Shown: positions 9,325 through 26,394 of the stretch, in pieces
Numbering within the stretch: the stretch's first letter is position 1
Layout of the letters: each line of letters starts with the position of its first letter
Source: a virus
Direction: 5' to 3' (one strand)
IMG/VR virus record: IMGVR_UViG_3300030419_004699
Location: 3,614-30,408 of that record
Length of the DNA stretch: 26,795 nucleotides
Notes under the pieces: generated by a model
Database searches by the model: none
What the model was told of the DNA's origin: nothing
Seen by the model: only the letters and a program-made list of their open reading frames with translations
Translations under genes and position numbers: made by a program

Positions 9325-10413
9325 TTAATCACATTCCTCTACTTCTTCAATAACCTGCTTATAAGTATCTTTCACAGTCATTTGTGATGATAGTTTTTCC
9401 CCTGGTGCGGCTTTAGACATTGCTATAGCCATAGAACTAGCTTGTTCTTCTAAGGCACACTCAAACGAAGTAATGCTCGGGAACAGGCACGTAACGTCAT
9501 CCACCCTCTTGATTTTGCACAATGTATCAGTATCAATTTTATCATCTAAAGTAATTTTAAAAAAGTAATTTGCATGATTTGGCTCTAACTCAGTCTCCGG
9601 TAACCCATGAGAAGTACTAATAAAATCATAATCCACATTACCCTTTTCGTCAGTTGACAGTTGTCCAGGCCAATATAGCGGATACTGTTTTTCAGTGGAC
9701 CCGCTGCTTTCAATCAAAAACACCTCAATATCAAAATTCTCATTAGTACAAGTTGTATTAAGTTCTTCTACTTGTAATACAAAAGGATCTTTGTTAACAA
9801 TGATAACAGTGCCATCTTCCAAAGTAACTCTCTGCTCTCTAAGGAACCTGTCATTGTCTGACATTTTGCTTTTATGTAAAATCTCGTATTCCATAGAAGC
9901 GCTTAGTTGCGGAATAATATCTGATGAATGGGAGCCAGTTACTAGCTCAACCGATCCTGTCAAGTTACCATCCATTGCACGGACAAGCCAAGCAGGCGAT
10001 TTATCCGACGCAAGATCGCACGTACCTAAAGGGGCAAAAGTCGCATAACTATTTTCTGGAAGGGGTAAAATCTTTTCTTCACCATGTTCGGCTTCGTCTT
10101 TATCACTATAAAGATACGCAGGTTCTCCACCGTTCTTTTTCATTTGGCTACGAATTATTTTATTGGCCTCAGTCACAGAAGTTTCCACGCCGGCGTATAC
10201 GTATTGAACGCCTTGGCTAGGAGTTTGGTTTTTGATTCTGTATTCGATGTTACTTTGTGTTTCTGTTAGTCCACCGTAATCACCGTCATAGAGTACATCA
10301 TCATCAAAAAAAGCATAAAGAGTTGGCTTGAATCTACCCTGAGATAAAAGGTATTTTCCATACTGAGTTAGCTCAATATCTAAAACATCTTCTTTTTTAT
10401 CTAAAAATGCCAT
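9325..10413 (-). CDS. Phage virion protein, 362 aa, paralogous N-terminus to the 339-aa protein
   Basis: The protein has 362 residues. ATG at 10413 is preceded by CAGGT about nine bases upstream. It opens MAFLDKKEDVLDIELTQYGK, followed by LLSQGRF and YAFFDDDVLY, the same pattern as the start of the 339-residue protein at 1353-2372. The remainder does not align visibly with it. The chain is acidic overall and contains several cysteines, clustered near the C-terminus (LCKIKRVDD, then TCLFP, FECALEE, and the final EECD). The last 60 residues look helical and charged. There are no membrane segments. It lies 45 bases downstream of the giant 3833-residue gene and two bases upstream of the 1219-residue gene. 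A structural role in the tail or baseplate is inferred from the neighbourhood and the paralogue. Confidence 0.82.
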   Translation of the reverse strand: MAFLDKKEDVLDIELTQYGKYLLSQGRFKPTLYAFFDDDVLYDGDYGGLTETQSNIEYRIKNQTPSQGVQYVYAGVETSVTEANKIIRSQMKKNGGEPAYLYSDKDEAEHGEEKILPLPENSYATFAPLGTCDLASDKSPAWLVRAMDGNLTGSVELVTGSHSSDIIPQLSASMEYEILHKSKMSDNDRFLREQRVTLEDGTVIIVNKDPFVLQVEELNTTCTNENFDIEVFLIESSGSTEKQYPLYWPGQLSTDEKGNVDYDFISTSHGLPETELEPNHANYFFKITLDDKIDTDTLCKIKRVDDVTCLFPSITSFECALEEQASSMAIAMSKAAPGEKLSSQMTVKDTYKQVIEEVEECD

Positions 10414-10458: not shown

Positions 10459-13400
10459 TTATTCATCTTCTAGTGCTGTCCGTATAGCATCAATCGCGAC
10501 TTTATTTTTATCATCTGCTCCTCCAGCGCCTCTAGCAGAATTATTCGCTCTAAGCATCGCTTCAACCCTCTTAGTTGGCTTAATGGTCGGCTGGGCGTCA
10601 ACTTTAGCCAACTCAATTAGCGAGAAGAAATCATACGGCCAATTGTAGCTATATGTTGGTACCGAATCTTTTCCTCGGTTGGCGGAGGTAAATTTAAACT
10701 TTGTATCATCGGTTGTGTCTTTTGTTACAGAATAATAGTTAGTTTCCGCCTTTTGTTTAACTTTGAAAACCATCCAGCGCAAGTTAGATGGCAATCCTCT
10801 GTTATCCGGATCCACCAAGTGATCTGGCATTTCGCCTGCTAAAATCTCTTCACCGCCGGGAGTGTGGTTAACCGAAAAATACCCCATCAATTCATTTGTT
10901 GTTAACGGATGAGAGACCTCAGACATGACTTTATCAGAATCTTTATTTTTTTGAACTGTTGTTTGGCCACCGGGCATTATACCCTGCCAAATATCCTGTA
11001 AATCTCCTTTGGAGAACGTATGATTAAATTCAAATATATACATAACGCACGGATCAACACTTGTCTTCTTTTCGCTCTTGCCTGCGTCTTTAAGGCGGAG
11101 TCGCTCCGATACAAAATCAAATTGAGGAGGGATAACATACTTTTGCATTTTTGTAACCATATTTCTTATGGATGGTCCCGGAAGGGGCACATTACCACTA
11201 GTGCGATCCGTAAACTGCTCGTCATTAATCGCACTTAAAATATGATCAACAATATGCTGATCATGCTCGGGGTGGTGACTTAGCGGAACAAATGAATTTT
11301 GACCAAATATTGGCACAGCAACAATAGCCTCACTCACAGTTTTTTCACTGGCCATTTCACCAATTCGCCTTGTTGTAGACGACTTATCGAATCCACAGAG
11401 TTTAAGCAGGGATCCTACATTAGTGTTACTATCATCAAAAGTGTCTTCAGAAAAACTCTCTGCTAATTCTAAAGTAATACCATTGCTGTTGTTTGGTTTG
11501 GGTATATCACCATACGTTTTCCATGTCCCTCGTGTAACACTATCATCTGTATGAGCATTGTGACTTAGCACGGGACATTCAAATTTCGTACTCAAAACCC
11601 ACATGCTTTCCGATGTGTTTGCACCTCCATGTGCCGTTATAGGTGTTCCATCTTCAGCGTTCCAATCAACATTATATACTTGTGATTTACCAAAGAAATC
11701 AATAGAAGAGGTCAATTGCATTTGAAATAACCTAGCAACTGAAGATGACCAATTATAGTCATAAGTACTGCTATTGCTGCTATTCAGTCTATCTGCCTTT
11801 TCATTGGAGTTCCAACATGTGACAGTTGTGTTATTGTGAATATCTGATAAATCTGGTTTTACACCGCCATGGCCATAAAATTCATAGGATGGTGTATATT
11901 TCAAGCGGCATTTCGCAGTACCATAAAAATATGGAGGCGTATAAGGAGCGAATGCAGGATCTGCAGTGTGCATTATCCTATCAGCAGCATATTCTCCATC
12001 GGTAGTATTGTTGTTCTCCGCTGTTGACATAGGCACCTCACACGCTGGGCCGTAATGGATTCCACGAAGGAGTCGCCTTGGGGAATAGGCATCAGCATTG
12101 TGATCGGAGCCGGGGCCGTCTCTTGGGCCTTCATACGAAACAAAATTACTGCCAGTCTTTAATATAACATCCATATAATAATCTTTTGGAGTATCTTCAT
12201 CAACAGACTGTACCGCCTTGAAATCAGATGCTCTTACAGATGTAAATGTAGATAATTGTTCATCTTTTAAAAAGAATCTAACGGTTTCAGCTAAGAAATT
12301 GTGCATCGCTAGATCATACCTATAATCATCTCCAGCCAGACCACCGGTCGCGACCGTTAAAGGAACGTGAACGGGGTCTATTAAGTTCATTTGTGCTTTA
12401 GGTATATAACTCTTGGGATCGTAAATCGCTTCAAACGGTAATCTAAATTTGAAATTTTGGTTTATATAAGTCGTATTATCCCCAAGAAGCCCCCTATATT
12501 TACCATCAGAGCCAGTTTTATCAAAAGTATTATTTTCAGGATGCGTAGGTTTAGGACGAAATCCCGTGTCCATCATAACAGGCCAATCCACAGCCAACCC
12601 AGATTTAATTGAGTTATATAAGATGCCAGGAGCCATCAATGGCTGCAAAATAGTTTGCATACGCCCAGCTTCAGTGTTAACTCCCGTGCTAGGTACATTT
12701 TCTCTAATCTGGTCTCCATATGATTGAGAGAAGAGTGTACCCAATTGTAATGTTCTCGTAACCGGATAAAACCCTTGATATGGAAGAAACTTTTTAATCC
12801 CGCGACATATCATCTTAAAATGCGTTGTAGTATAACCGCTAGTTTCATGGTCCGTTTTCATTACATCAAAATGTTGTAAGAAATCTGAATGTGAGAAAAT
12901 CTTGAAAAAGTCTGTTTCACTTGATGAAGAGAGGTGTCCTCCCTCTAAAGTGAATGTCGCTGCCTCATCGTCATCGCCTTTAAAAGTTTTTGGAACTTCA
13001 AAATTATTCTCTAAGTACTCTTCCATGTGTTCAGAAACCCTAAACTCTGGAATAGTAGTATAGCCTTGGCCGATCAATCTAATATCTTGGGCATAGTCGT
13101 CATAAGAATCGTACCAGGGGTTTCTAGCAGTGCCTCTAATGGTGGCGCGATCCGTATTTGCAGTCCAATCAGCAATATAACTTTTAAATTTATATTGAGT
13201 GCTACTAACTTTATATGTATGTAACTGAAAACAGTCATACTGCAGTGAAGCTGTTGCTTGTGTTGCTCTCGCGTAGCGTAAGGGATAGTTGCCGATAAAA
13301 AATGTATCGACATCTGCGATAGTCCACCCATTATACCACGACAATTCACCTGTTTTACTGCTATCAGTGCTATCAGAAACAGTTGTACTAGCCAAAGGAG

Positions 13401-16400
13401 AAGAATAGGTTTTAGTCTTTGTCGGAAATCCTCCCGGCGAGCCTTTACAGTCCAGTGGCCAAACACTCTGTGGCATATAAACAGTAGCAGGCGATGCAAA
13501 TGCATTGGTGGAGGTGGAGAAATTATAAGTATAACTTGACGCGGATAACTCATAGCCAAGAGAACTGGTATGGATGGTGGGTGAGCCCTGTCCAACTTTT
13601 AACCTATCACTAGCATCGTTTCTCCAAAACGTCCTATTTTGCCCACCAACTGCCGTTGCCATTTGTAAAGCAGTTTCAGCATAATTCGTTCTACCGCGCA
13701 CCTTACCAAGGTATGCATTAATCTCTTTAGGGTACACCGTTTCAGTATACACAAATTTATCGAACTTTTCTATCGGATTGGTTTCCCAACTCATTCCACG
13801 AGCAGTATACAAATAAGTAATCTTATCGTACATCTGGTTACCACCGTCGCCTGTGACGGTATTTGTGATTCTGTTTAATTTATCGTTTGCAAAAGTTGTC
13901 AAGTTGTTACCATAAGTGGTCTTGACTTGCAACGCCTGCGGAACAAGGACATCCAGTGTACCGGGTGGTGTAAAACCATGATCTTTAATAAACAAAGAAT
14001 GCATAATCGGCTTAAACTTCGAAGTCACTGGAGGTTCTGTGAACTGATGAATTGTGGTTGTTTCTTTTGTTTTAAGAAAGTTTGCCGCTAGGCCGGCTAT
14101 ATCGCCACCTTTTTTAATTTGCCACCATGGTGTTGGGCCTTCCTTATTAACAATAGTATGTGAAACAATGTTGTTTCTTTTTTGATATCTTGCAATTGGA
14201 TGTTGTCCAGTTCTTGTTTGTTTCCAAGAAGGATGTTGATATGGTCCATTGCGGTGGAGCAGCAAAGAGTTAACGACGGCAGCGTATCCCGCATTCCTTA
14301 TTGCAGTATCATCCGTATCTCCAGAAGCAACATCACAAAAATCGCTATTTACATAATTTACATCGATGGCAGAGCCTGCACCGGCATGTGTTAATTGCGA
14401 GTATCCAAGCGTATTAGCGCTAGATGAAATCGGCTCATAAATATGATGATTCAAACCAACAAAGTCGGTTGGAACAAACTCGGTTAAAGTATTCCAATTT
14501 CCGTCGCTTCCAATTTGTACACCAAAGGTTCTACCTTTTTGATCTGATCCATATTTAACAACATGACTACCTAAATCACTTGCACTAACAAATTGAATTG
14601 CTTGTACAAAGCCGTCTGCAGAACTTGAATACCATCCGTCACCCGGAGGGTGACCATATGAATAAGAAGTGATATAGGAAGCAGTAATCCAAGTGTATTG
14701 CAATGTATCTGCTGGAATCTCTCGCTGAACCCAATAATTGTCATATGACTTTCTGGTTGCAACCGCTGTTAAATCACCCTCATTGATGCTGCCGCTATTA
14801 ACAATCTCGTATCTATCGAGAGGATTCTTATTCGTTTTATGGTAAGAAGCACTGGCCTCGGTTATAAGAGGTTGGTCAGAAGCGGCAGTTCTAGTGCCGG
14901 TAGAGGTGGTTATTATACTAGCAGCAGCATAACTACCAGCAATTGATAAAACAGCATCCACAGTAGTTGTTGAGATCGTTCCCACTTTGCCAGCAGAATT
15001 GTGAGCTATAGCAAGGTTTAAATCTTCATTTGTTATAGCCAATTTAATACTAGTATTAATATTTGATGCAAAATCTGCCACCGAACTAACATTTTTATTA
15101 ATAGAATAATTTGTAGCAGTAGCTTTAGCATTGCTAGTTTGGAACGTGAAAGTAACTTGTTTCCCTAAACCATCTCCAATTATAATAGTTTTATCAGCAT
15201 AGTCACCTGACGTGGTTGATGTGCATGTAAAGTCTACAGTATCATACGTATCAGGAGCGCCAAATTGTCCTGCATGTGTTGTTAATAAAGACCTTAACGG
15301 TTGTCTTACACTTAAGTTTCTAAAAGGAAGCGCATTATATGCAGAGTATTCTTCAGATTCAAAATCTAATGCGCCTCTAGAGTTAATCTCGGGTCCACCT
15401 GGGGCAGAGAATCTATTGACGATCACATGCTCGCTTCTTCCACGATCTGGAAGTTTAAAATCTACTAGGCCGTTGACGTGCCCAGACCATACAGGGAGGC
15501 TGACCTCTACATCTCTAAAGTCCACTGCGTTTATAAGAGCAGCAGTGTTGCCAGCAGCATTGTTAAAGGTTATTTGATTGCCGTCTGCTCCTATTTTATC
15601 AACCCTTAATGTAACATACCTCTCAGAAGATGACGCAATTGCAGTGAGCCCTTGGATTCCGTTGTCACTATCACCAGAACCAGTACCATAACGTACAATT
15701 GTATCGTCTGCTGATCCATTTATTGCAGCTACCACGTTAGCTTGCATAATAGCAGCTGTCGCCCCTCTCTTGATATTGATGCGGTTTGTGCCGGCAGCGA
15801 CCATCGTTGTTAAAAACATTACAACTATTGTGTTATCACTTCCGCCCACCGAAGATGGCACCAAAACTTCAAAAGCATCTTCATTAGCCACGCCGCCCGA
15901 ATTAAGATCTATTTTATCAGGAGCAGTTGACTTGGTAACAGTTTCAACGCTAGGGCTTGGTATGCCGTTTGACTCAATAAAATAGACATTATTGTTTGAT
16001 CTTCCTCCGCTAAGTTTAACTACTTCATAGCTCTTCTCATAGTTTCCAATAATCGTCGTTCCTGCTGAACCAGTGGTTTGTTTAATATTTCTAATGTTTA
16101 CAGGACGTTTTGCAGATTCGTCTCTCAACATTGAGGCTTTTGGGTATTCTGATTTAAAGGCCACGCTTGCGTTTCTTTGAGCAGGGAGCAAATATAAATC
16201 TTGACTAGCCGCCTGTTTAATTCTAAAACCCTCACCTCGTGTGGATTCTTGATCCGACGCATTATAATTCAAGGCGACATGTCTATATTGCCACCCACCA
16301 ACATATTTTTCTGTAAACGGACCCTGTAATGGAACATCATTTGTTCCCGGGGTGATATCATCATGATAATTGGCAATAACAATATTATCTTTAAAGTCCA

Positions 16401-19400
16401 CATTACCGACGCTAGAACTGTACAAAGTAAACGGCACAATGAAGTCATCACTAGTGAGATAACTTAAATCATGCGCAGTTGGATTTCTCGGTTGTACTTT
16501 ATAACTGACCTTTCTTTTAGATACTAACGTTTTATTATCATCGCACGAATCATTATAATCTATCGAAGTTCTGGAGACTGCCAAATGATCATAAGCATCT
16601 CGGGGGAAGTTAGTATTGAGAGAGGCATGGTAAAAATCGCGATTTTTGTTCGTTTCAGAGTTAGATCCGCCACCAAACGTCCTTGTCTTATCAATATCTA
16701 ATCTAAAGGGCCTAGAAAGCCGTCTAAGGGCGTAAGTTGAGGCTAGGTATGTGTTGCTATTGCCTCCGCCAGAACCGCTGTGAGCGAGCGTATCGTTGAT
16801 CCAGGAGCCACTAACATCACTAGTGATTCTTTCTAAAAGCGTGTTCCTATCCGAATCAACATTACCATCTCCGGAAGTAGCAGAAGTATCTCTTTCCACT
16901 CTTTCTTTCCACCAAAGACAATTATCACCTTGTGTCTTTGCACCGCCAGAAAACTTACTAGACACGGTAACGTTGCTGAAGTTATGAGTAATCGCTGTAT
17001 TACCCTCATAACCTGCAACGACTTGAGTTAAAGTAAGGGTTGCTCCATCGCGAGTTACTGTAATTTTATCACCTGCGGTGTTATGGCCGGCGGGGCCATC
17101 AATGGCCAGTTTTAGGCCGGCGGCGATCTCGGCGGGCGTGTTCGGTGCACCTCCATGGCCGACACCAAAGGCAAGATCCGAGCCAGACCATTGCGATCCT
17201 TTCGCTTGATAAGTTCTAGATGTTCCATCAGTTGAAATGATTGTGATGGTGTGGTCATATGAATAATCTGGATCAGGTGCACCAGTGAAAGTTATTGTTG
17301 CAGTCGCTTGGCCGATGGGTGCATGGCCAAACTTCCAATTATAGAGAAGTTCATTAATACCAAACAGAGAACCTTCCGGTTCACTAGGGGACGTTTCAAT
17401 TGTTGGGAACTTGGTCCAATACTTATTTCTCTCCAATACATGACTCTCAACCATGTTCTGTAATGCGTCTGAAGTGTTGGCCGAGACCGGTGTTAGTTGT
17501 TTTAAAATTTCAAATATAGACGTATCAATCCACTTATAAAAATCAACAAATTTATCGAGGTCTGGTGTGTTATTGACTTTTTCAAAGAAGAACTGCTTCA
17601 TCTTTGACAAGGATTTGTACGATTGGCGATACCGATATACAGGCTCACCAATTAAATTATTAAAATCCATTATAGAAGCAAACATGTTTAACATTTCTTC
17701 TGATATTGTTTGATACATACTCTTTTCAAAAGAAATATAATATGTAATTGGGTTATGCTCTCTTGTGAAATATTCGTCATCTTGTTCTAAAATCTGAACC
17801 ATATCAGAGCTATTAATGACTTCTGGCAGTTGTTGTTTTGCAGAATACACATATTCAGCGTTAATACAGCCGGTATCATTGGCATCAAAAGAATACCCAC
17901 GACCAGGGTGTCTATAGTTAGTGATTCCGCCGACCCAATTACACCTAGCGGCGTTGGCGACGGAGCCAGAAGTCACGTCTTTTACGATAAATTCACCAGA
18001 CGAATCAGATCCAGTAATCGTCGCGAAATCCCAATTTAAAGCAATCGTCTCAATTGCCGGCACTTCAGTTCCACTTAAAGTCGTCTGAAGAGAAGAAAAA
18101 GAATTTTTGTAAGCATTAGGAGCCCCATAATTAGAAGAATCCTTAGCGTGTTTTTTAATGACGTCATCATTAAGATAATTCATCCAAACGCGAGCGGATG
18201 AAATTCGTGCATCGCTGTAAGATAATATAGAGCCAGTAAAATTAGTTTTATGTGCACCAATGTACAATCGTTTTTTAGAGGTTAAAAAGCTTTTAGCAAG
18301 GGCAGTACTAGTCATAGAACCAGTAACTAAAAACTCGTTCTGTACAATATCTGTATTTGCGTTTACACCAACAAATTCAACGTTATACTTGTACGCATCA
18401 TTAGCGCTACTTGATGCAATCATATCTACTATCGGATACTTTACTGGTTTGAATCTAACAGCAAAGTTCCACTCGTTATTGTCATACACATTGTAAAACA
18501 AACTACTTGTCAGATTGGGAATTATACCATTGCTACTAGTAAGTTGGAAATATGCATGCGGTGAATCTCTCTTATCCCTAACCGCATACACTTGGAAGTC
18601 GTAATCGTCAGCGCCATTGGTAAAGCTTGTGATCGCAGTGTTAGAAAGAGTTGTAACAATTGTAGTGTTACCACCTGAGCCGGCTGTGGCCTGCGTCAAG
18701 GTCAATTTGGCCCCGTCGCGAGTTACTGTGATTTTACCATTGTGGCCAGCTGCAATTTCAATGCATTGTTTTAGACCATCAGCGATGGTAGCTAGCGCTG
18801 TTGGGGCACCGCCATGGCCGACTCCAAAAGCAAGATCATTGGAGTTCGCTGGGCCGAATTGTGATCCGTGAGTTACATAAGTCCTAGACGTCCCATCGGA
18901 TGAAACGATTATGATAGTGTTGTCATATGAGTAGTCTGGATCGGGGACACCAGTAAATTCAATTGTTGCAGTGGCTGCAGCGTTTGTTACCCATGTATAA
19001 TTTGTGTCAGTATTAGAAGCTTGCGCTGTATGTACACCAAACAATGAACTAGTAAGAGGAGCATAAGACTTATAAAATTCACCCGTGCCGGCTTCCTGGC
19101 CGAATTTATACGGAAAAATAACCTCTGCCTCAAATGTCATTGGTACACCTGGGTCAACATCACTAAAGGGTGTGCCAGAAATATAAGATCTTACATCTGC
19201 ATCAGCTTCGGATGTAGAAACGGTAAAAGAATCGATGAACGCACTTACATTAGACACAGTGGCGTCGTTTGAACCTATTTGATCCTCGATAGAAGAAGTA
19301 GTATCGTTTGCTCCATCTCCCATTCTCCACCAAGAAACCAAGTTTGAAGCTTGTGAGTGAGAAGATAAACTAATTGGACTTTCATATAACTCCGTAACCT

Positions 19401-21960
19401 CGTCCGCGTCCAGGGCAATACCCCAAATAGCCACCTCATCAACCGAAAAATCTCCATAGTTACTATTTACATCCCTACCGATACGGAAAGGTTTTGACTC
19501 GTTTTCCATGGTGACGTAGCTTGTACTACCCGCTCCAGTGCCCGTAAGAGATCCGTTTACATAAACCTTGAGTGACGAAGGTGATGTGCCACCTTCATAA
19601 ACTCCAACAACATGAACCCATTCATCACTAGTGGGAACAGCCACGGACACATTCATCAAATAAGCAGTATTATCACCAGTATCTACGATATACCAAACTA
19701 ATTTATTTGTTCCATTGTGCTGATGATATACATTAAATCCCCACTCGGCATATGTGGTTGTAGTGCTGGAATATAAAAGATCTTCGACCAACCCCTTACC
19801 AAGTACAGGTTCGTTTTTATAACCAGATCCGGGGGCTCCACCTAGTGTCCAATCTTCTTTGTTAATCCAGAAAGAAATAGAAAAAGCACTGGTTCCAAAA
19901 GAAAGGCTATCAGAATCAGCAACTTCAAGATATTGATTTGTACCGTTTAAGGAAATGGCTTTATTCGTGACATTACACGTGCTGCAGGCACTTCCAGTTA
20001 CCTGGAATACACTCCCTGTATGATTATTAGTAAAATCTACAAAGTGTTTCTTAACAGTCGTAACTCTAGTGTTTTCTTTTAGAACATATGTATCGTTATT
20101 TGCGTATAAATTGATTTTGATCAACTCATCATCGATGCCATAACATCTAATGAGGTTTCTAAAAGATTTCTCGGTTCCTTTTGTTTTATAGATGTAAGTC
20201 AAATTGTTATAAATGTTTTGATAAATCTCATTTCTAATCTCAAACAATTTCTCTTTATAGAGTTTTTCTTCGTCGCGACTAGCGAATCTTTCAAGCAAAT
20301 CAGCCTGCACAAAGATTTCTGGCACAATCAGCCCTCGCGACTCTAACATGCGATCTACGAAAGGAAGAGGAGTCTCATCGCTCTTATAATACTTTATATT
20401 TGTAAGTGTTGGTAAAGATTGTATTTGTAGATGCAAGGTATCAAAATAGCTTGAAATAATTTGCACCATATTCAGCAGAGTGCCATCGTCTTCTTCCGTA
20501 ATCCAATGCGGCAGAGAATTATATATTGAAGAATTGTTTTGGTAGTCCCACGCAGAACCTGATTGTCTCATGGTTGTAGTCAGTGACTTTACATCCGGGT
20601 GAAACGAATACATGACAGGATCTCTAAATTCCGATATTGCTGCACTAGCAGATACAATAGCAGATCCCGTGTTACGCGAGGAAGAAGTATACCCTGTCCA
20701 TGTACCATTGGAGATTCTTCCGGAATAGTCCAGCACACTTGAATCAGAAGAGCTAGTGCCAGTTATTCCTTCGTTAAACTTATAATATACGCCCAGATCC
20801 ACAGGGTTAGCAGAGCCCGTAAATTTGAAATTATCACTGTTGGTACCTCCCCCAACGTGAGTAAACCAATATCTTCCAATTTGCTTAGAAGTTCGTCTTT
20901 TGGTCCAAAATCTAAATTCATCCAAAGATCCGGATAGGCGACCTGCACCTCGTAAATTTACATCCGTAAAACTATTACCAGATGGAGCAGTAACCAGTGC
21001 CCCAACATATGCAATTGATCCAGTGCTAAATTCGCCTATAGTGGTACCTGCAGTAAAAGTTTTCTTTAGTTCCCCATTGAAATACGAATATAGTTTAAGA
21101 TTTGACCCAGAATTAACAAAAGAAACAGCTATGTGGTTCCAACTTCCAGTTGCAATTAACGTACTGTCATACAATGCTTGTTTGAAAACACCCGCTGTCC
21201 CCGATTGAGCCGTTAAGATGAGATTATAATTGTTTGCAACCGTTGCTGATGCTGACAATTCCAGTGTGACTCTACCATAATCAGCGCTGGATGATAACGA
21301 GCCACTTCGCCATAAATCAAATATAACTTGTTTATCAGTTGTGGTGTCTTTATCTAAAGCTCCCACCTTAAGCCATGCTTCGATGGTGTTACCTGTGCTT
21401 CCGCTAACCCCTAAGTTGGATTTTCTATTTATTTCTTCATCCCATATATTTGCATCACCTGTGTATGGGCTCGGAAATGATTTGGCAAAATTCTTACTAG
21501 AGTCAGAAGAAGCGTGTGGGCCTCCATATAAAGAGATATATTCTAAAGTACTTGGTTTTCCATAACCATCTGTAGCAGAACCATCCCTAGTAGACCATCC
21601 AGTAGCTGCAAAGACTGCATACCCTGTTGTCCTAGGGTACTTGTTCTCCAGCATCCAAAGATCCAGGTAAGTAGATTCATTAACCCACGTGGTTTTTTCC
21701 TTAAGCGACCCATCATAAGGATAAGTCTTATAAACTCTTTCGATAGAATCAAGGTAATATTTTTCCGCTGATCCAAAACGTGCGAAGTTTGAAGCAGTTG
21801 CATAGTTGACATTAGCTACAAATCTATCATCACGAGTCTGTATTTCTTTAAGATATTCTGGAGATTCTAGCTCACGTCCAGTGTTATCCTCGGTTGAGGC
21901 TTTGCGAACTTTATACGGCCTGTTGGTCGTTGTAAAAAGATCTTTTAATTTTTGGCCCAT
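10459..21960 (-). CDS. Giant multidomain baseplate/adhesin protein with LamG folds, 3833 aa
   Basis: One uninterrupted frame of 3833 codons (roughly 420 kDa) starts at ATG 21960, with AAGGTG seven bases upstream. Visible parts in order: an N-terminal region (FGSAEKYYLDSIERVY near residue 65); LamG/concanavalin-like fold 1 at about 190-365 (NTIEAWLKV to LDEFRFWTKRR); a helical segment at about 480-620 (LPHWITEEDDG to YIYKTKGTEKSFRNLIRCYG) that resembles the KGT-containing core of phage tail protein I; LamG fold 2 at about 663-865; a third LamG-like fold at about 937-1300, interrupted by an inserted repeat domain at 992-1116; a helical block at about 1367-1520 (FFFEKVNNTPDLDKFVDFYK, ESHVLERNKYWTKFP); a second repeat domain at about 1550-1673; weaker repeat-like regions at about 2017-2153 and 2240-2358; and a long C-terminal half with motifs such as LQPLMAPGILYNSIKSGLAV near 3103 and PYDFFSLIELAKVDA near the end. 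No protease or hydrolase motif is seen. It probably combines a baseplate docking core with glycan- or protein-binding modules. Confidence 0.88.
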   Translation of the reverse strand: MGQKLKDLFTTTNRPYKVRKASTEDNTGRELESPEYLKEIQTRDDRFVANVNYATASNFARFGSAEKYYLDSIERVYKTYPYDGSLKEKTTWVNESTYLDLWMLENKYPRTTGYAVFAATGWSTRDGSATDGYGKPSTLEYISLYGGPHASSDSSKNFAKSFPSPYTGDANIWDEEINRKSNLGVSGSTGNTIEAWLKVGALDKDTTTDKQVIFDLWRSGSLSSSADYGRVTLELSASATVANNYNLILTAQSGTAGVFKQALYDSTLIATGSWNHIAVSFVNSGSNLKLYSYFNGELKKTFTAGTTIGEFSTGSIAYVGALVTAPSGNSFTDVNLRGAGRLSGSLDEFRFWTKRRTSKQIGRYWFTHVGGGTNSDNFKFTGSANPVDLGVYYKFNEGITGTSSSDSSVLDYSGRISNGTWTGYTSSSRNTGSAIVSASAAISEFRDPVMYSFHPDVKSLTTTMRQSGSAWDYQNNSSIYNSLPHWITEEDDGTLLNMVQIISSYFDTLHLQIQSLPTLTNIKYYKSDETPLPFVDRMLESRGLIVPEIFVQADLLERFASRDEEKLYKEKLFEIRNEIYQNIYNNLTYIYKTKGTEKSFRNLIRCYGIDDELIKINLYANNDTYVLKENTRVTTVKKHFVDFTNNHTGSVFQVTGSACSTCNVTNKAISLNGTNQYLEVADSDSLSFGTSAFSISFWINKEDWTLGGAPGSGYKNEPVLGKGLVEDLLYSSTTTTYAEWGFNVYHQHNGTNKLVWYIVDTGDNTAYLMNVSVAVPTSDEWVHVVGVYEGGTSPSSLKVYVNGSLTGTGAGSTSYVTMENESKPFRIGRDVNSNYGDFSVDEVAIWGIALDADEVTELYESPISLSSHSQASNLVSWWRMGDGANDTTSSIEDQIGSNDATVSNVSAFIDSFTVSTSEADADVRSYISGTPFSDVDPGVPMTFEAEVIFPYKFGQEAGTGEFYKSYAPLTSSLFGVHTAQASNTDTNYTWVTNAAATATIEFTGVPDPDYSYDNTIIIVSSDGTSRTYVTHGSQFGPANSNDLAFGVGHGGAPTALATIADGLKQCIEIAAGHNGKITVTRDGAKLTLTQATAGSGGNTTIVTTLSNTAITSFTNGADDYDFQVYAVRDKRDSPHAYFQLTSSNGIIPNLTSSLFYNVYDNNEWNFAVRFKPVKYPIVDMIASSSANDAYKYNVEFVGVNANTDIVQNEFLVTGSMTSTALAKSFLTSKKRLYIGAHKTNFTGSILSYSDARISSARVWMNYLNDDVIKKHAKDSSNYGAPNAYKNSFSSLQTTLSGTEVPAIETIALNWDFATITGSDSSGEFIVKDVTSGSVANAARCNWVGGITNYRHPGRGYSFDANDTGCINAEYVYSAKQQLPEVINSSDMVQILEQDDEYFTREHNPITYYISFEKSMYQTISEEMLNMFASIMDFNNLIGEPVYRYRQSYKSLSKMKQFFFEKVNNTPDLDKFVDFYKWIDTSIFEILKQLTPVSANTSDALQNMVESHVLERNKYWTKFPTIETSPSEPEGSLFGINELLYNWKFGHAPIGQATATITFTGAPDPDYSYDHTITIISTDGTSRTYQAKGSQWSGSDLAFGVGHGGAPNTPAEIAAGLKLAIDGPAGHNTAGDKITVTRDGATLTLTQVVAGYEGNTAITHNFSNVTVSSKFSGGAKTQGDNCLWWKERVERDTSATSGDGNVDSDRNTLLERITSDVSGSWINDTLAHSGSGGGNSNTYLASTYALRRLSRPFRLDIDKTRTFGGGSNSETNKNRDFYHASLNTNFPRDAYDHLAVSRTSIDYNDSCDDNKTLVSKRKVSYKVQPRNPTAHDLSYLTSDDFIVPFTLYSSSVGNVDFKDNIVIANYHDDITPGTNDVPLQGPFTEKYVGGWQYRHVALNYNASDQESTRGEGFRIKQAASQDLYLLPAQRNASVAFKSEYPKASMLRDESAKRPVNIRNIKQTTGSAGTTIIGNYEKSYEVVKLSGGRSNNNVYFIESNGIPSPSVETVTKSTAPDKIDLNSGGVANEDAFEVLVPSSVGGSDNTIVVMFLTTMVAAGTNRINIKRGATAAIMQANVVAAINGSADDTIVRYGTGSGDSDNGIQGLTAIASSSERYVTLRVDKIGADGNQITFNNAAGNTAALINAVDFRDVEVSLPVWSGHVNGLVDFKLPDRGRSEHVIVNRFSAPGGPEINSRGALDFESEEYSAYNALPFRNLSVRQPLRSLLTTHAGQFGAPDTYDTVDFTCTSTTSGDYADKTIIIGDGLGKQVTFTFQTSNAKATATNYSINKNVSSVADFASNINTSIKLAITNEDLNLAIAHNSAGKVGTISTTTVDAVLSIAGSYAAASIITTSTGTRTAASDQPLITEASASYHKTNKNPLDRYEIVNSGSINEGDLTAVATRKSYDNYWVQREIPADTLQYTWITASYITSYSYGHPPGDGWYSSSADGFVQAIQFVSASDLGSHVVKYGSDQKGRTFGVQIGSDGNWNTLTEFVPTDFVGLNHHIYEPISSSANTLGYSQLTHAGAGSAIDVNYVNSDFCDVASGDTDDTAIRNAGYAAVVNSLLLHRNGPYQHPSWKQTRTGQHPIARYQKRNNIVSHTIVNKEGPTPWWQIKKGGDIAGLAANFLKTKETTTIHQFTEPPVTSKFKPIMHSLFIKDHGFTPPGTLDVLVPQALQVKTTYGNNLTTFANDKLNRITNTVTGDGGNQMYDKITYLYTARGMSWETNPIEKFDKFVYTETVYPKEINAYLGKVRGRTNYAETALQMATAVGGQNRTFWRNDASDRLKVGQGSPTIHTSSLGYELSASSYTYNFSTSTNAFASPATVYMPQSVWPLDCKGSPGGFPTKTKTYSSPLASTTVSDSTDSSKTGELSWYNGWTIADVDTFFIGNYPLRYARATQATASLQYDCFQLHTYKVSSTQYKFKSYIADWTANTDRATIRGTARNPWYDSYDDYAQDIRLIGQGYTTIPEFRVSEHMEEYLENNFEVPKTFKGDDDEAATFTLEGGHLSSSSETDFFKIFSHSDFLQHFDVMKTDHETSGYTTTHFKMICRGIKKFLPYQGFYPVTRTLQLGTLFSQSYGDQIRENVPSTGVNTEAGRMQTILQPLMAPGILYNSIKSGLAVDWPVMMDTGFRPKPTHPENNTFDKTGSDGKYRGLLGDNTTYINQNFKFRLPFEAIYDPKSYIPKAQMNLIDPVHVPLTVATGGLAGDDYRYDLAMHNFLAETVRFFLKDEQLSTFTSVRASDFKAVQSVDEDTPKDYYMDVILKTGSNFVSYEGPRDGPGSDHNADAYSPRRLLRGIHYGPACEVPMSTAENNNTTDGEYAADRIMHTADPAFAPYTPPYFYGTAKCRLKYTPSYEFYGHGGVKPDLSDIHNNTTVTCWNSNEKADRLNSSNSSTYDYNWSSSVARLFQMQLTSSIDFFGKSQVYNVDWNAEDGTPITAHGGANTSESMWVLSTKFECPVLSHNAHTDDSVTRGTWKTYGDIPKPNNSNGITLELAESFSEDTFDDSNTNVGSLLKLCGFDKSSTTRRIGEMASEKTVSEAIVAVPIFGQNSFVPLSHHPEHDQHIVDHILSAINDEQFTDRTSGNVPLPGPSIRNMVTKMQKYVIPPQFDFVSERLRLKDAGKSEKKTSVDPCVMYIFEFNHTFSKGDLQDIWQGIMPGGQTTVQKNKDSDKVMSEVSHPLTTNELMGYFSVNHTPGGEEILAGEMPDHLVDPDNRGLPSNLRWMVFKVKQKAETNYYSVTKDTTDDTKFKFTSANRGKDSVPTYSYNWPYDFFSLIELAKVDAQPTIKPTKRVEAMLRANNSARGAGGADDKNKVAIDAIRTALEDE
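14885..15240 (-). repeat. Divergent repeat-like domain D in the giant protein
   Basis: This encodes about residues 2240-2358 of the giant protein. It has an opening strand pair (DKTIIIGDGLGKQVTFTF), a helix-like FASNINTSIK block, and Ser/Thr/Ala-rich closing strands. This matches the strand-strand-helix-strand order of the clear copies but lacks the LTQ and GNT motifs. It lies shortly after domain C, so the two may be tandem diverged copies. Confidence 0.4.
15500..15910 (-). repeat. Divergent repeat-like domain C in the giant protein
   Basis: This encodes about residues 2017-2153 of the giant protein. It keeps part of the repeat pattern (QANVVAAIN, then GLTAIASSS, YVTLRVDKIGADGN) in the same order as ATNIA-x-AIN ... 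VTLTQ-x-x-G-x-x-GN of the clear copies. Spacing and identity are weak, so membership is tentative. Confidence 0.45.
16940..17314 (-). repeat. Repeat domain copy B inside the giant protein
   Basis: This encodes about residues 1550-1673 of the 3833-residue protein: an ATATITFTGAPDPDYSY opening, SDGT/STDGTSRTY, DLAFGVGHGGAP, KITVTRDGATLTLTQ, then a GNT and FSGGA close. It is about 60% identical by eye to copy A at 18611-18985, and the DNA is also visibly similar (both contain a ccatggccga core). It contains a strongly GC-rich patch at 17101-17160. Its flanks (YNWKFGHAPIG before, DNCLWWKERVERD after) read as if they were once continuous. Confidence 0.85.
18611..18985 (-). repeat. Repeat domain copy A inside the giant protein
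   Basis: This encodes about residues 992-1116 of the 3833-residue protein: ATATIEFTGVPDPDYSY, SSDGTSRTY, DLAFGVGHGGAP, GHNGKITVTRDGAKLTLTQ, then GNTTI and FTNGA. It aligns with copy B along its whole length. It interrupts a LamG-like fold: strands with EAEVIFPYKF and SSLFGVHTAQ precede it, and DDYDFQVYAVRDKRD, NEWNFAVRFKPVKYP and KRLYIGAHKTNFTG follow it. Confidence 0.85.
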
Positions 21961-21961
21961 A

Positions 21962-24181
21962 CTATTTCACCTTAAATCGGAATACTTCTGGCTGTTTTAC
22001 ATATTTTCCATTTGTGTAATGTATAAAGTTAATCTCGTATAAATACCCTGACTCTAACAAATCTATATTCAGATCAAAATAACTGCCACTGGTATCATAC
22101 GAAAGTTTTGTATAATCCACACTTCCTGTGCCATATGCTATTACCTCTGTATCATCATATGGCCTTCGGATTTTATAAAATAACTTCTCGATATTTGTCG
22201 TTTCAGCAGTTGCTGTCGCCTTAGTATAAATAGTAGGGTTCCAATTTTGTAAACGTGTGAAAACTCTAAACCTTGCAGTTTCATCACGAGTATATTCTGT
22301 TTTTAGATTTGTGATATTTATCACGTAATTTGGATTTGGATCATACCCGGGAGCAGCAAGGCTTGTTGGAGAAATAGTGCCGGTAAAATATTCAACTCCT
22401 CCCCTATACCAAACATCAAATAATTTCGTTAGCGGAGTAGAAGATGCTGTTGCAGCAAAACTTCCACTATATACACCGGTTGAAACGCGACCGCCGACAA
22501 CTTCTATTTTTGCCGAACCTGTGACATGCACCCCGTCTTTAACTAAAAGCAGGGGATCTCCGGAAGGAGACGTATTATCTGCTGACCCTGAGTATAGATT
22601 TATATACAGGCCCCCGGATTCGACGCCTCCGACAAAATCTGTTTTTGTCATGCCAGTTTGGCCACCTAAATCAGTGAGAGTGACAGTCGTATTGCCGTCT
22701 TTTCCTGTGGTTGCTTGAGTTATTGTTACAACAGCACCAGACGAGGTAGCTGTGAAATATGAACTATAATTTATAGCTGTGGCAATGTTCGTGGCCGTGT
22801 CGGTTGTACTGTTATTTGCAATTGCAGCTTCTACAGCCGTGGTAGCTGCAGCGGAAGTGGTAGTCCCTCCGATAGCGGTAATAGTACATACAACTGTCGT
22901 TTGGTCAGTAGAAATCAGGGTGATTTTGTCACCAGCTTCCATCCAACCTTCATTAGCAACAGTAACTGTAGCAGTGGCAGCGGCTGCATCCAAACTGGGT
23001 ATATCTTTCAGTTGCCCTCTAACATAGTTGTGAAGATAAACTGTATTTAAGTTATCAGCTGCAGTGGCTAAAGAGCTGCTATAATTAAAATTATTTCTTT
23101 GATCAAACGTGGCTTTATCCCATCGTGCTTCGATAACTGGCCTCTGAAAGAAATACTGCGTACCCCTGGCAGAAAACCTCTTTGTATAATATGAGCGCTT
23201 ATCAGAGCCATCTTCATATGTTCCAGACATCATAATGCCGACGCCATAATTGTTCTTGGTGCCGGCAATCCACTGCTCCACTAGTTCACTAATGTCAATA
23301 TCTAAATCTTCATGGCCGTCTTTAAATGTTTGAGAATATAGTGTAGCGGCGGTAGTATGATAATCTCCACCTTCTGTTGTCCATGACACTAAAGTGGAAA
23401 ATGCAGTTGCAACTGTAATAATACTGTCTGTAACAGCAGTCCCATCAGTGGTGGTCTCGCCAGAAAAGCCTGTTGTTTTTTGTGTTAAAGTAACCGTTGC
23501 GCCAGATGACGTAGCTGTAGTGTTCAAAGTTGCCGGTGATGCATCAGCAGCAGCATTAATAGCTGCAGCGATATTCGTTGCAAACTGTGTAGCATTACTA
23601 TTTGCATTGCCAAACGCAATTTTAGTTGCAGTTGATGTAGATATTGAGTTATCAATTGTAAAATTAACTGTATTGCCATCTGCATCTGTAACATTCAAAA
23701 CTCGTGTATTGGCCTGACCGGCAGTTTTACTTGTTGCCGTCAATACTGCAACAGCGTTAGAAGAAGACCCGGACTGTGCTAACTCCCAGTTTGCTTCATC
23801 GCGATCTGTATAGCTTTCCATGTCCAAGCCCAGACCCTCGTCCCAGGCAGTTGATACGGGTTTAACAGCCAGTGTATATTCACTTGGCAGTGTCAAAGGG
23901 TGTTCTGTGTTATAAAGTCTTAAAAACCAGGACACGCTACCGCTAGCGGGGATCGTCCCAGCAGTGCGATCAGCTGACATTGTATCAACAGGGAATTTTA
24001 TTAAAATACGTGATTTTTCTTGAGAAAGCCCCGCGCTTCCAGAATCTTGTCCATAAATAGAAAAAACCTCTAACGAGTCTGCCAAACCCATGTTAGACCC
24101 CGTGCCCCTATTGGATATAGTAGAATCAAAAGCATTAGTTATTGTTGTGTCTGCACTGGCAGTGTATCTGTATAATCCCAT
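21962..24181 (-). CDS. DNRLRE/CBM96-like domain structural protein with two inserted repeat domains, 739 aa
   Basis: The protein has 739 residues. Its ATG shares one base with the gp6 stop (TAATG), and the only ribosome site is an AGGA about 11 bases upstream, so translational coupling is likely. Residues 8-140 and 265-355 read as one DNRLRE/CBM96-like domain split in two: the first half has TTITNAFDSTISNRG, SRILIKFPVD and TAWDEGLG; the second has W-x-TEGGDYHT, DLDIDISELVEQWIAGTKNN and a closing RPVIEARWD. This family is associated with carbohydrate binding. Between the halves lies a repeat domain (about 142-262), and a second copy follows at about 398-523. The C-terminal 200 residues are beta-rich (VYSGSFAAT, LFDVWYRGGVEYFTG, ending FRFKVK). 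Its position between gp6 and the giant LamG protein suggests a baseplate component contacting the host surface. It ends one base before the giant gene. Confidence 0.85.
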   Translation of the reverse strand: MGLYRYTASADTTITNAFDSTISNRGTGSNMGLADSLEVFSIYGQDSGSAGLSQEKSRILIKFPVDTMSADRTAGTIPASGSVSWFLRLYNTEHPLTLPSEYTLAVKPVSTAWDEGLGLDMESYTDRDEANWELAQSGSSSNAVAVLTATSKTAGQANTRVLNVTDADGNTVNFTIDNSISTSTATKIAFGNANSNATQFATNIAAAINAAADASPATLNTTATSSGATVTLTQKTTGFSGETTTDGTAVTDSIITVATAFSTLVSWTTEGGDYHTTAATLYSQTFKDGHEDLDIDISELVEQWIAGTKNNYGVGIMMSGTYEDGSDKRSYYTKRFSARGTQYFFQRPVIEARWDKATFDQRNNFNYSSSLATAADNLNTVYLHNYVRGQLKDIPSLDAAAATATVTVANEGWMEAGDKITLISTDQTTVVCTITAIGGTTTSAAATTAVEAAIANNSTTDTATNIATAINYSSYFTATSSGAVVTITQATTGKDGNTTVTLTDLGGQTGMTKTDFVGGVESGGLYINLYSGSADNTSPSGDPLLLVKDGVHVTGSAKIEVVGGRVSTGVYSGSFAATASSTPLTKLFDVWYRGGVEYFTGTISPTSLAAPGYDPNPNYVINITNLKTEYTRDETARFRVFTRLQNWNPTIYTKATATAETTNIEKLFYKIRRPYDDTEVIAYGTGSVDYTKLSYDTSGSYFDLNIDLLESGYLYEINFIHYTNGKYVKQPEVFRFKVK
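22612..22990 (-). repeat. Repeat domain copy 2 in the 739-aa protein
   Basis: This encodes about residues 398-523: ATATVTVANEG, DKITLISTDQTTVV, TATNIATAIN, FTATSSGAVVTITQATTGKD, GNTTVTL and a DFVGG close. The order of motifs (ATAT, I-x-L/I-x-STD, ATNIA-x-AIN, GA-x-VT-x-TQ, G-x-x-GNT, F-x-GG) is the same as in the giant protein copies, although direct identity is much lower than between copies A and B. Confidence 0.78.
23397..23757 (-). repeat. Repeat domain copy 1 in the 739-aa protein, splitting a DNRLRE-like fold
   Basis: This encodes about residues 142-262: AVAVLTATSKTAG, DADGNTVNFTI, QFATNIAAAINAAAD, TATSSGATVTLTQKTTGFSG and a short Thr/Val-rich close. It shares ATNIA-x-AIN and TATSSGA-x-VT-x-TQ-x-TTG with copy 2 of the same protein. 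It sits between the two halves of a DNRLRE/CBM96-like domain. Confidence 0.75.
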
Positions 24182-25980
24182 TATCTAATAGTTCCTGTTA
24201 TATCTATATTTGGATATTTAAGCTCTGCAACCATATTCCCAGGAATATGAACGAATCGTCTGTCTGGCGATGTGTGGGCATCAATGTCAAGATAAGAACC
24301 AGCATATTCGGCTCCAGAACGATGTACAATTTTGACAGAAACAGTATCTGCGATGCCAGGTAGATTATTTAATGTTCTATAGATATTCGATATTGATATA
24401 TGCTCTCCTATCTCAAAAGGCACAGCAAACAAATTCTTCAATGCGCTAACTGCTTGCGTTAATATATCAAATCTATTTGCAGATACTTGACTGATAGCGG
24501 TAAATTTAATGCCAAAATTAAAAACCTTAGCGTCCAAGATATCAATAGTATCATTGACCATCCTGTAATTGTTAAGCCAAGTTTTTAAATTCTTTTTAAT
24601 AGCCGTGTTGGTTTTAGTAAATTTATTACCAGAACCCTCAGATACAACGTACATATTCAAGTTTCTTTTTAGTGTTCCAGTGTCGCGAACAATATTGCAT
24701 CTCTTGATAGCACCGAATTCCCCAGGCATGGCATATGTTAAAGCTATGTAATCTTGAGCAGTTACCGCTCTATTCTGTGTGGCGTGATGATCAAAAACTC
24801 GTATCTTGACCTCATCAGATGTTGTTTCTACCGTGTCTCCAGTTATTGGTTCTTCATTGGTACACTCCAGGGAACCAATGACAGCATTAACCTTGCCCTG
24901 ATCTAAAGTATTAAAGTCGTCAAACTTCATAATTGGACGAGCAACATTTGTGACAGAATCAACAGCAGCATTTGCATTATCCGTTGAGTTGGCACGATAA
25001 ATTACTCTAAGGGTGGTGTCTGCTGGTGCAATCCCGAATTTATCAGAAGACACCAAATTCGAAGGATCAAAGGATTTATCAGCAAAATAACTCTTGGCGT
25101 GTCTATCTAAAACTATGCTTGCAGGATCCTTAACAGATAAACTTGGAAGTTTCTTATCGGAACCATGACCAAATTGCAAAGAATTAACACCAAATCCATC
25201 TCGCTCAAGAGTAAATCTCCTAGGCACAACGACGCGCTTAATCAGCGAAGGCACTCCGTCTGATTTATAATCTGGGTTTGAAACAGCGGTATATATTGTG
25301 TTCTGTGATAAATTTTGTACTTCAAAATACTCATGTCCCTCGGAATCGCGAACAGAAATAATCTCAGTAACATCTTCACTAGCAAGATCAAGTTTTAAAA
25401 ATTTCTGTGCTGTTCCGATGGTGAACACCTCTTCCACCAAGTCTCCAGAAACAACAGTTCCAAACGCCTTAATAGCAAAAAAGGTTGGTGCGCCTGTAGT
25501 TGTATTAACATTGGCTACAATCACTTCGTTATTTGTATGAGAGAATTCCACATCATGTACTAGGGTAAACTTATTTCCGTCCACGGAACGAAGTTCTGTA
25601 CCTCTTTGCAGCACCGGTATATAATTCGTGTCCGGACCCACACCAGTAACACTAGCCGGCACAGAAGCAAAAAACGCGATGACTCCAGTTGAAGTTGACG
25701 ATCCTTTTGGTTTATATCCTAGCTGGCGACCATGCTTAACAACGTTTTGATATTCAATTGAAGTGGCCAGAAAAGATTCATTGGCTTGATAATCCAAATA
25801 AAACGATAAAATATCACCAACATACGCAACAGTATCAATCATTAAAGAGCCAAAAGACGCATCAGTAAAATCCTTATAGCTGTCCGGATAATACCTTTTA
25901 GCATAATTGACTAAATCTGTTCTTATGGATGCAAAATCTCGGCTAGTATACCTTATAGGAACGTTTTTTCTTTCTGGCAT
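24181..25980 (-). CDS. 6: Baseplate wedge protein, T4 gp6-like
   Basis: The protein has 599 residues, close to T4 gp6 in size (about 660). In T4, gp6 forms the inner iris ring of the baseplate that holds the wedges together and controls sheath contraction. Family marks seen here: the N-terminal block PIRYTSRDFASIRTDLVNY, then FTDASFGSLMIDTVAYVGDI and LDYQANESFLATS (residues 8-75), typical of gp6 and baseplate J-like proteins; an NRAVTAQDYIALTYAMPGEF block at about 403-423; and a C-terminal YPNIDITGTIR. ATG at 25980 has AAGGAA nine bases upstream. It follows the gp25 gene by 45 bases, the usual T4-type 25-6 neighbourhood, and overlaps the next gene by one base. Assignment is from motif recognition, not from a search. 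Confidence 0.93.
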   Translation of the reverse strand: MPERKNVPIRYTSRDFASIRTDLVNYAKRYYPDSYKDFTDASFGSLMIDTVAYVGDILSFYLDYQANESFLATSIEYQNVVKHGRQLGYKPKGSSTSTGVIAFFASVPASVTGVGPDTNYIPVLQRGTELRSVDGNKFTLVHDVEFSHTNNEVIVANVNTTTGAPTFFAIKAFGTVVSGDLVEEVFTIGTAQKFLKLDLASEDVTEIISVRDSEGHEYFEVQNLSQNTIYTAVSNPDYKSDGVPSLIKRVVVPRRFTLERDGFGVNSLQFGHGSDKKLPSLSVKDPASIVLDRHAKSYFADKSFDPSNLVSSDKFGIAPADTTLRVIYRANSTDNANAAVDSVTNVARPIMKFDDFNTLDQGKVNAVIGSLECTNEEPITGDTVETTSDEVKIRVFDHHATQNRAVTAQDYIALTYAMPGEFGAIKRCNIVRDTGTLKRNLNMYVVSEGSGNKFTKTNTAIKKNLKTWLNNYRMVNDTIDILDAKVFNFGIKFTAISQVSANRFDILTQAVSALKNLFAVPFEIGEHISISNIYRTLNNLPGIADTVSVKIVHRSGAEYAGSYLDIDAHTSPDRRFVHIPGNMVAELKYPNIDITGTIR

Positions 25981-26025: not shown

Positions 26026-26394
26026 CTATATTTCTAATATTTGTATTTCACTTTCGGAAGGAATAGAGTAAAATATTTTAATACTTAACAAAGGGTTGCC
26101 AAGTTGTTCCTCGGAAGACGTAAATTCCATGTCTTCTATGATAACTCCGGGGACATATTTTGTAACCTGCATTGAAACATCATTACGAATCTTTGATTCT
26201 ACATCAGGGGTAAAGTTCTCGAATAAATATTTAGCTACGCCTGCTCCAAAATCAGTGTTCATAACTCTTTCTCCTGGAATAGTCATAATCACGTGTTTTA
26301 AATTTTGTGATAATGTCTGTTTCAATGTCTTGTTTAGTGCATACCCATCAATAGTATCTTTGTATAGTGGCAACTTTGGCGAAATACCGGACAT
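26026..26394 (-). CDS. 25: Baseplate wedge protein, gp25-like (GPW/gp25 family)
   Basis: The protein has 122 residues, the normal size for the GPW/gp25 family. In T4, gp25 sits at the inner baseplate beside gp6 and gp53 and nucleates sheath assembly; the type VI secretion homologue is TssE. Diagnostic features are PGERVMNTDFGAG at 40-52, LFENFTP at 57-63, and an alternating-strand C-terminus with VPGVIIEDMEF at 81-91. ATG at 26394 is preceded by GGGAGGAA with six-base spacing, a strong start. The family's old name 'gene 25-like lysozyme' should not be taken as enzymatic; no lysozyme catalytic pattern is visible. It lies just upstream of the gp6 gene and 72 bases downstream of the gene cut by the right edge. 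Confidence 0.93.
   Translation of the reverse strand: MSGISPKLPLYKDTIDGYALNKTLKQTLSQNLKHVIMTIPGERVMNTDFGAGVAKYLFENFTPDVESKIRNDVSMQVTKYVPGVIIEDMEFTSSEEQLGNPLLSIKIFYSIPSESEIQILEI

Follow-up and report, generated by a model that had tools for sequence, protein, structure and literature searches.

An in-frame beta/alpha domain is gained and lost at fixed sites of two adjacent baseplate-region proteins and travels between unrelated virion genes

Background

Two adjacent virion genes of one virus encode proteins of 739 and 3833 residues, and copies of one domain of about 120 residues occur in both of them. The question raised by this locus is whether the domain is a module that can be transferred as a unit between virion proteins, as a sequence-only reading had proposed, or whether vertical descent keeps it in constant places in its homologues. 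The window, that is, the whole stretch of 26,795 nucleotides analysed here, is described in Table 1. Its large genes are all encoded on the minus strand, the gp25-like and gp6-like baseplate wedge genes being followed by the gene of the 739-aa protein and then by that of the 3833-aa protein. Since both module-bearing genes lie just downstream of the gp25- and gp6-like genes, they are part of the baseplate region of a virus with a contractile tail. The closest gp6 proteins of isolates, those of Microcystis phage Mel-JY01 and the Flavobacterium immutoviruses, are around 30% identical.

Domain mosaicism, where unrelated phage proteins have fragments in common, frequently in tail proteins, is already known in phages (Smug et al. 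2023, PMC10684548). The same is true of the Ig-like accessory domains, which are promiscuous in the structural proteins of diverse phages and are thought to be weak carbohydrate binders (Fraser et al. 2006, as cited in PMC9230969 and PMC10684548). We found no description of a helix-containing module family such as the one reported here, of its breadth, or of the filled, empty or substituted state of defined loops.

Results

Copies of the module in the window

The four copies that had been proposed, two in each protein, are all real. Both reading frames are as described, each of the copies A-D was found with a profile made from the other three (21-99.6 bits), and the ordered motif set that had been read across them is visible in the alignments. 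The copies lie at 16942-23755, so the span of 16940-23757 given before was correct. Furthermore, a profile of C and D only gave 14.4 bits for A and 11.8 bits for B, whereas the best of 1000 composition-preserving shuffles of each reached 6.6 and 4.0. With a profile made solely from other viruses, A-D scored 69-101 bits and their shuffles peaked at 6-10. Among the four, C and D resemble each other most (62% amino acid and 71% DNA identity). The inserts A-D contain little besides the module (123-128 aa) and leave the frame open.

Table 1. Features of the window (E and F were scored with a profile without any copies of the window)
Feature	Position	Strand	Insert or domain in protein	Profile match (aa; window)	Evidence or content
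Window	3614-30408 of the 30.4-kb virus record
gp25-like baseplate wedge	26026..26394	-			phrog_261, E=1e-13
gp6-like baseplate wedge	24181..25980	-			phrog_219, E=1.4e-19
739-aa baseplate-region protein	21962-24181	-			ORF; host of copies A and B
Module copy A	23393..23770	-	aa 138-263 of 739	143-262; 23396-23755	leave-one-out profile, 21 bits
Module copy B	22616..22984	-	aa 400-522 of 739	402-519; 22625-22978	leave-one-out profile, 25.5 bits
3833-aa giant virion protein	10459-21960	-			ORF; hosts copies C and D, probable copy F, E-type insert and two LamG domains
First LamG-like domain	20896..21405	-	~aa 186-355 of 3833, bounds approximate		second Laminin_G_3 stretch
Second LamG (ConA-like lectin) insert	19210..19989	-	aa 658-917 of 3833		Laminin_G_3 at 672-855
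Module copy C	18613..18996	-	aa 989-1116 of 3833	996-1116; 18613-18975	leave-one-out profile, 87 bits
Module copy D	16933..17313	-	aa 1550-1676 of 3833	1552-1673; 16942-17307	leave-one-out profile, 99.6 bits
Insert E (tentative far relative)	15496..15951	-	aa 2004-2155 of 3833		15.3 bits vs shuffle maximum 11.2
Insert F (probable divergent copy)	14866..15255	-	aa 2236-2365 of 3833		20.7 bits vs shuffle maximum 11.0

Nevertheless, four was too low a count, as the 3833-aa protein carries two further and more divergent inserts. Judging from its profile score, insert F can fairly securely be considered a divergent relative of the module. Insert E, which may tentatively be taken as a far relative, reached a profile-profile probability of 56% against the main family in hhalign, and forms an E-type sub-family with inserts of L043, L048 (site A and site D) and L072. 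The two adjacent baseplate-region proteins of the window thus have four secure module sites and, in addition, one or two divergent ones.

Regarding the surroundings of the inserts, copy A is placed inside a DNRLRE-like domain, between the flanks EANWELAQ and VSWTTEGGDY. The N-terminal half of the 739-aa protein is this interrupted DNRLRE/CBM-like domain (DNRLRE_dom NF033679, E=3.5e-4, which is below the family cut-off). Copy B occupies the turn joining strands 379-384 and 525-532 in an AF2 model of the scaffold. The 3833-aa protein matches Laminin_G_3 in two stretches (E=1.2e-27), and its first LamG-like domain is kept in the relatives according to the alignment and holds an inserted module in other viruses (L056, L061 and L124).

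Some observations concern other genes. A 339-aa protein (1353-2372) and a 362-aa protein (9325-10413) of the window have in common an N-terminal MAFLD... motif (44% over 45 aa, E ~4e-5) and differ outside it, which from the sequences suggests a common virion-attachment segment. A 390-aa protein (154-1326) is 20.5% identical over 185 aa (E=1.6e-6) to a neighbouring 398-aa protein (L004:2364-3557), and the two are possibly paralogous tail proteins. No tandem DNA repeats were found, and no DNA similarity was detected between the window and L115.

Empty, filled and swapped insertion sites

With 80 further loci anchored on gp6, we had 86 homologues for the 739-aa protein and 64 for the 3833-aa one. 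Homologues were clustered, and site occupancy was counted on these clusters of related viruses, up to 68 per site. All the sites were empty in most of the clusters: A in 58 of 68, with typically 0-5 aa in place, B in 51 of 52, C in 27 of 29, D in 17 of 25, E in 37 of 46 and F in 34 of 40. The site of the second LamG insert was likewise empty in 28 of 29 clusters. In place of inserts of ~125-260 residues, the empty sites had medians between -1 and 10 residues, and at A-D mostly 0-5 residues stood there. Moreover, both A and B are missing from three homologues of the 739-aa protein (L005-L007), whose flanks join cleanly and are 46-54% identical. The length of the 739-aa family ranges from some 480 to 970 aa.

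Where the sites are filled in other viruses, they have the module itself, E- or G-type relatives, or other domains. At site D the clusters that are not empty have the module, an E-type insert or a LamG domain, Laminin_G_3 (PF13385) standing there in L029 and MAM (PF00629) in L007. At site E we found Laminin_G_3 in L101, L087 and L055 and a Reelin-like piece in L105, and at site F the module in L007 and L104 and Laminin_G_3 in L022, L048 and L072. The Laminin_G_3 and MAM inserts occupy the module sites D, E and F of relatives; they are beta-sandwich domains of lectin or adhesion type, whereas their sequences are unrelated to the module, they are larger (~235-320 aa) and they belong to known Pfam families. 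Site E (also its homologous sites in L101, L087, L055 and L062) often receives LamG-bearing inserts of ~300 aa, and in L079 an insert of 723 aa. Inserts can also be nested: a G-type insert at site A (L069:5973-8291, plus strand) contains the module in a loop of its own, and the G-type insert of L102, a close host relative (sister) of L069, is without the inner module.

Spread between viruses and between unrelated proteins

On the tree of the host protein, the five rows with a module at site A amount to five state changes, as scattered as shuffled labels, and the starred branches force at least four changes at this site, counts of parsimony in which gain and loss are not distinguishable. Regarding the tree of the module itself, copies from the same site are as a rule not grouped, and sites and host proteins are mixed. 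The window copies C and D do pair together, and window copy A comes closest to one in L022 that occupies another site (60% amino acid identity). One clade (99/97, starred) brings together copies from two sites of the giant protein, from a spike, from a podovirus-type tail protein of phrog_376 and from a protein with tandem repeats.

Further scans of uncultured viruses yielded ~327 module copies, some of them fragments, in 182 ORFs and 47 clusters of host proteins. Many of the host proteins are without annotation. Among the annotated ones are tail sheaths (phrog_23; found in L008, L009, L013, L015 and L239), a head-tail adaptor (phrog_211), podovirus-type tail proteins (phrog_376), a spike (phrog_2234) and baseplate proteins. 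The module forms tandem arrays in 35 of the 182 ORFs. The sheath protein of L239 (3560-8053, plus strand) has 1498 aa and three copies. Another of the hosts, a phrog_376 tail protein (L025:7087-9999, plus strand), has E1_FCCH-like repeats (PF16190, E=6.4e-13) beside the module, perhaps another accessory repeat.

In one case the movement is visible at the DNA level. L124 encodes a homologue of the giant protein with the module within its first LamG domain, and L128 encodes an otherwise unrelated protein of 418 aa; the two are 91% identical in DNA over 343 bp that coincide with the module, and the similarity stops at the module edges. This is a fairly recent DNA transfer of the module that ends at the domain edges. 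L124 and L128 may be fragments of one virus, and the transfer would then be intragenomic.

Thus, the proposal of a transferable module was borne out by sites that are mostly empty, by a module tree that mixes sites and hosts, by unrelated virion proteins as hosts and by one transfer of DNA, and the copies are not tied to constant positions through vertical inheritance. The module is an in-frame domain that is gained and lost at fixed sites and travels between unrelated virion genes. Vertical inheritance from an ancestor with the module at all sites, followed by many losses, is very unlikely, since the common empty state of A and B with near-zero residue scars, same-site copies in different module clades with nearest relatives at other sites and proteins, and the identity between unrelated genes all speak against it, even though site A is common to several lineages and parsimony cannot separate gain from loss.

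The GC content of copies B-D is raised (46.6-49.3% against 39.7 +/- 2.8 in windows of the scaffold). A foreign origin deduced from it was rejected, as the GC3 corrected for amino acids was near that of the scaffold (|z| up to 2.2); because of this closeness the window copies need not be recent arrivals.

The 739-aa protein and three module copies gave no match by tblastn in INPHARED (one of them not even at E=10), a search in which T/A-rich queries may be masked by the low-complexity filter. A scan of GTDB genomes with one sub-family of the module found none. No family model covering the module was found in Pfam, PHROGs or NCBIfam, and in this the family differs from the mosaicism of Smug et al. 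(2023), which concerns families of sequenced phages.

Fold and possible relatives

Copy D was modelled with AF2 from 41 aligned copies at high confidence (pLDDT 85, pTM 0.82). The model has strands at 3-10, 23-27, 33-39 and 49-51, a helix at 61-73 and strands at 85-90, 93-101, 109-111 and 116-118. One common fold had been expected for all the copies; it holds for D as modelled, and for the others it is deduced from homology, the modules within a model of the whole 739-aa protein (pTM 0.45) being of low confidence.

A fold search of BFVD gave 28 matches at E <=0.001 in tail, baseplate-J-like and unnamed phage proteins, among them the sheath of 7-7-1 (Foldseek probability 1.00, TM 0.54), and therefore fold-level relatives exist in isolates. 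The best PDB matches were the contracted tail of PhiTE, the portal-tail complex of cyanophage P-SCSP1u (8i4m_A) and FliD, with TM of 0.46-0.50; the PhiTE tail (9cba) had a probability of 0.99, TM 0.46 and an rmsd of 8.8. A relation to flagellin/FliD was not retained, as it consisted of one Foldseek match (5fhy, probability 0.77) and sequence support was absent. The fold search with the whole 739-aa model returned antibody noise, and weak Pfam and PHROGs matches (HlyD_3, SWM_repeat, UL73_N and others) were dismissed as chance.

At the sequence level, the module profile matched residues 91-172 of the Milano sheath gp20 weakly (E=0.0065 over all PDB chains) and a second sheath with E=0.025, and 3 of the 41 module members matched the tail sheath family phrog_165 (best E=1.4e-4). 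The Milano chain was absent among the Foldseek matches listed. Residues 91-203 of Milano gp20 are the external sheath extension domain (PMC10811340). This weak sequence match suggests that the nearest solved relative of the module may be the sheath extension domain of Agrobacterium phage Milano. The profile alignment begins at the published start of that domain, which is an external insertion of the sheath body; nevertheless, one sheath protein has that domain as a constant part, whereas the module is polymorphic and occurs in many unrelated proteins.

The comparison with Ig-like insertions, made together with the description as beta-rich, holds for the phenomenon and fails for the fold. A classical phage Ig-like domain (I-set, Big_2 or FN3) would have the same lifestyle, as it is accessory, promiscuous, patchily distributed in structural proteins and beta-rich. 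However, this identity is highly improbable: a helix separates strands 4 and 5 of the model, the only Ig, Big or FN3 match of the 41 members in Pfam (PF00047, E=0.025) stood among chance matches, the antibody-type fold matches were weak (probability <=0.66, TM <0.5), and the insertions of the module lie within domains and loops. As for other mobile cargo (intein, homing element or DGR), no splicing, endonuclease or reverse transcriptase match was found in Pfam for the two host proteins.

Discussion

We consider it very probable that the module is a mobile, self-contained beta/alpha unit moving among virion proteins. Recombination would paste it in frame into loops of virion proteins, a beta-hairpin turn being one clear case, and it would later be lost or exchanged for another domain; the empty sites could partly be due to such losses. 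No dedicated mobility gene was found within the module, and the movement would be ordinary illegitimate or homologous recombination, either between module copies in co-infecting viruses or at the loops.

Whether it has an accessory role in adhesion or decoration is a more balanced matter, and our analysis leaves even chances for it. The module probably faces outward, like the probably related sheath extension domain of Milano, because of this relation, of the tolerance to insertion and of the exchange with lectin-like domains. There it would make many weak contacts to the host surface or to glycans of the environment, and gains and losses would adjust how many copies there are and where they sit. 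A role of this type has been proposed for extra sheath domains (PMC9230969). Taken as a whole, mobility together with this role is the explanation that we moderately favour.

The module could instead stiffen or cement the tail and baseplate via neighbouring subunits and not bind the host. Its presence in sheath and baseplate lattices and the tandem arrays would suit such a reinforcement, and additional sheath domains may cement adjacent subunits (PMC9230969). However, the same site is filled or empty in homologues of the same machine, and it accepts LamG or MAM domains of another shape; both observations fit poorly with a specific lattice contact, and we regard reinforcement as unlikely.

Equally, the module might be a near-neutral passenger, if a domain that folds well and has its two ends close together is tolerated in surface loops and recombination scatters it without benefit. 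The patchy distribution, the nesting of one module in another and the many unrelated hosts are what would be expected from this. Nevertheless, the same few sites are used again, also by lectin-like domains, and purifying selection on the fold is implied by the intact frames and the motifs that even very divergent copies have kept, so that a passenger without benefit seems improbable to us.

A more specific proposal is that contractile-phage baseplate and sheath proteins have dedicated "docking loops" served by a shared pool of beta-domains (the module, the E- and G-type inserts, LamG and MAM), whose specific and perhaps recombinase-assisted exchange would make up a combinatorial system of surface diversification. 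We find it quite doubtful.

With a mobile module of possible adhesion or decoration type as the preferred reading, the finding concerns a promiscuous phage domain that the current libraries have missed despite hundreds of copies in uncultured viruses. The natural insertion sites are unusually clean, the same residue of the same protein being filled, empty or occupied by a lectin-like domain, and therefore single modules could be deleted or compared as a direct test of what accessory tail domains do. Gain and loss of the module would also explain part of the length variation of tail proteins and of their resistance to annotation.
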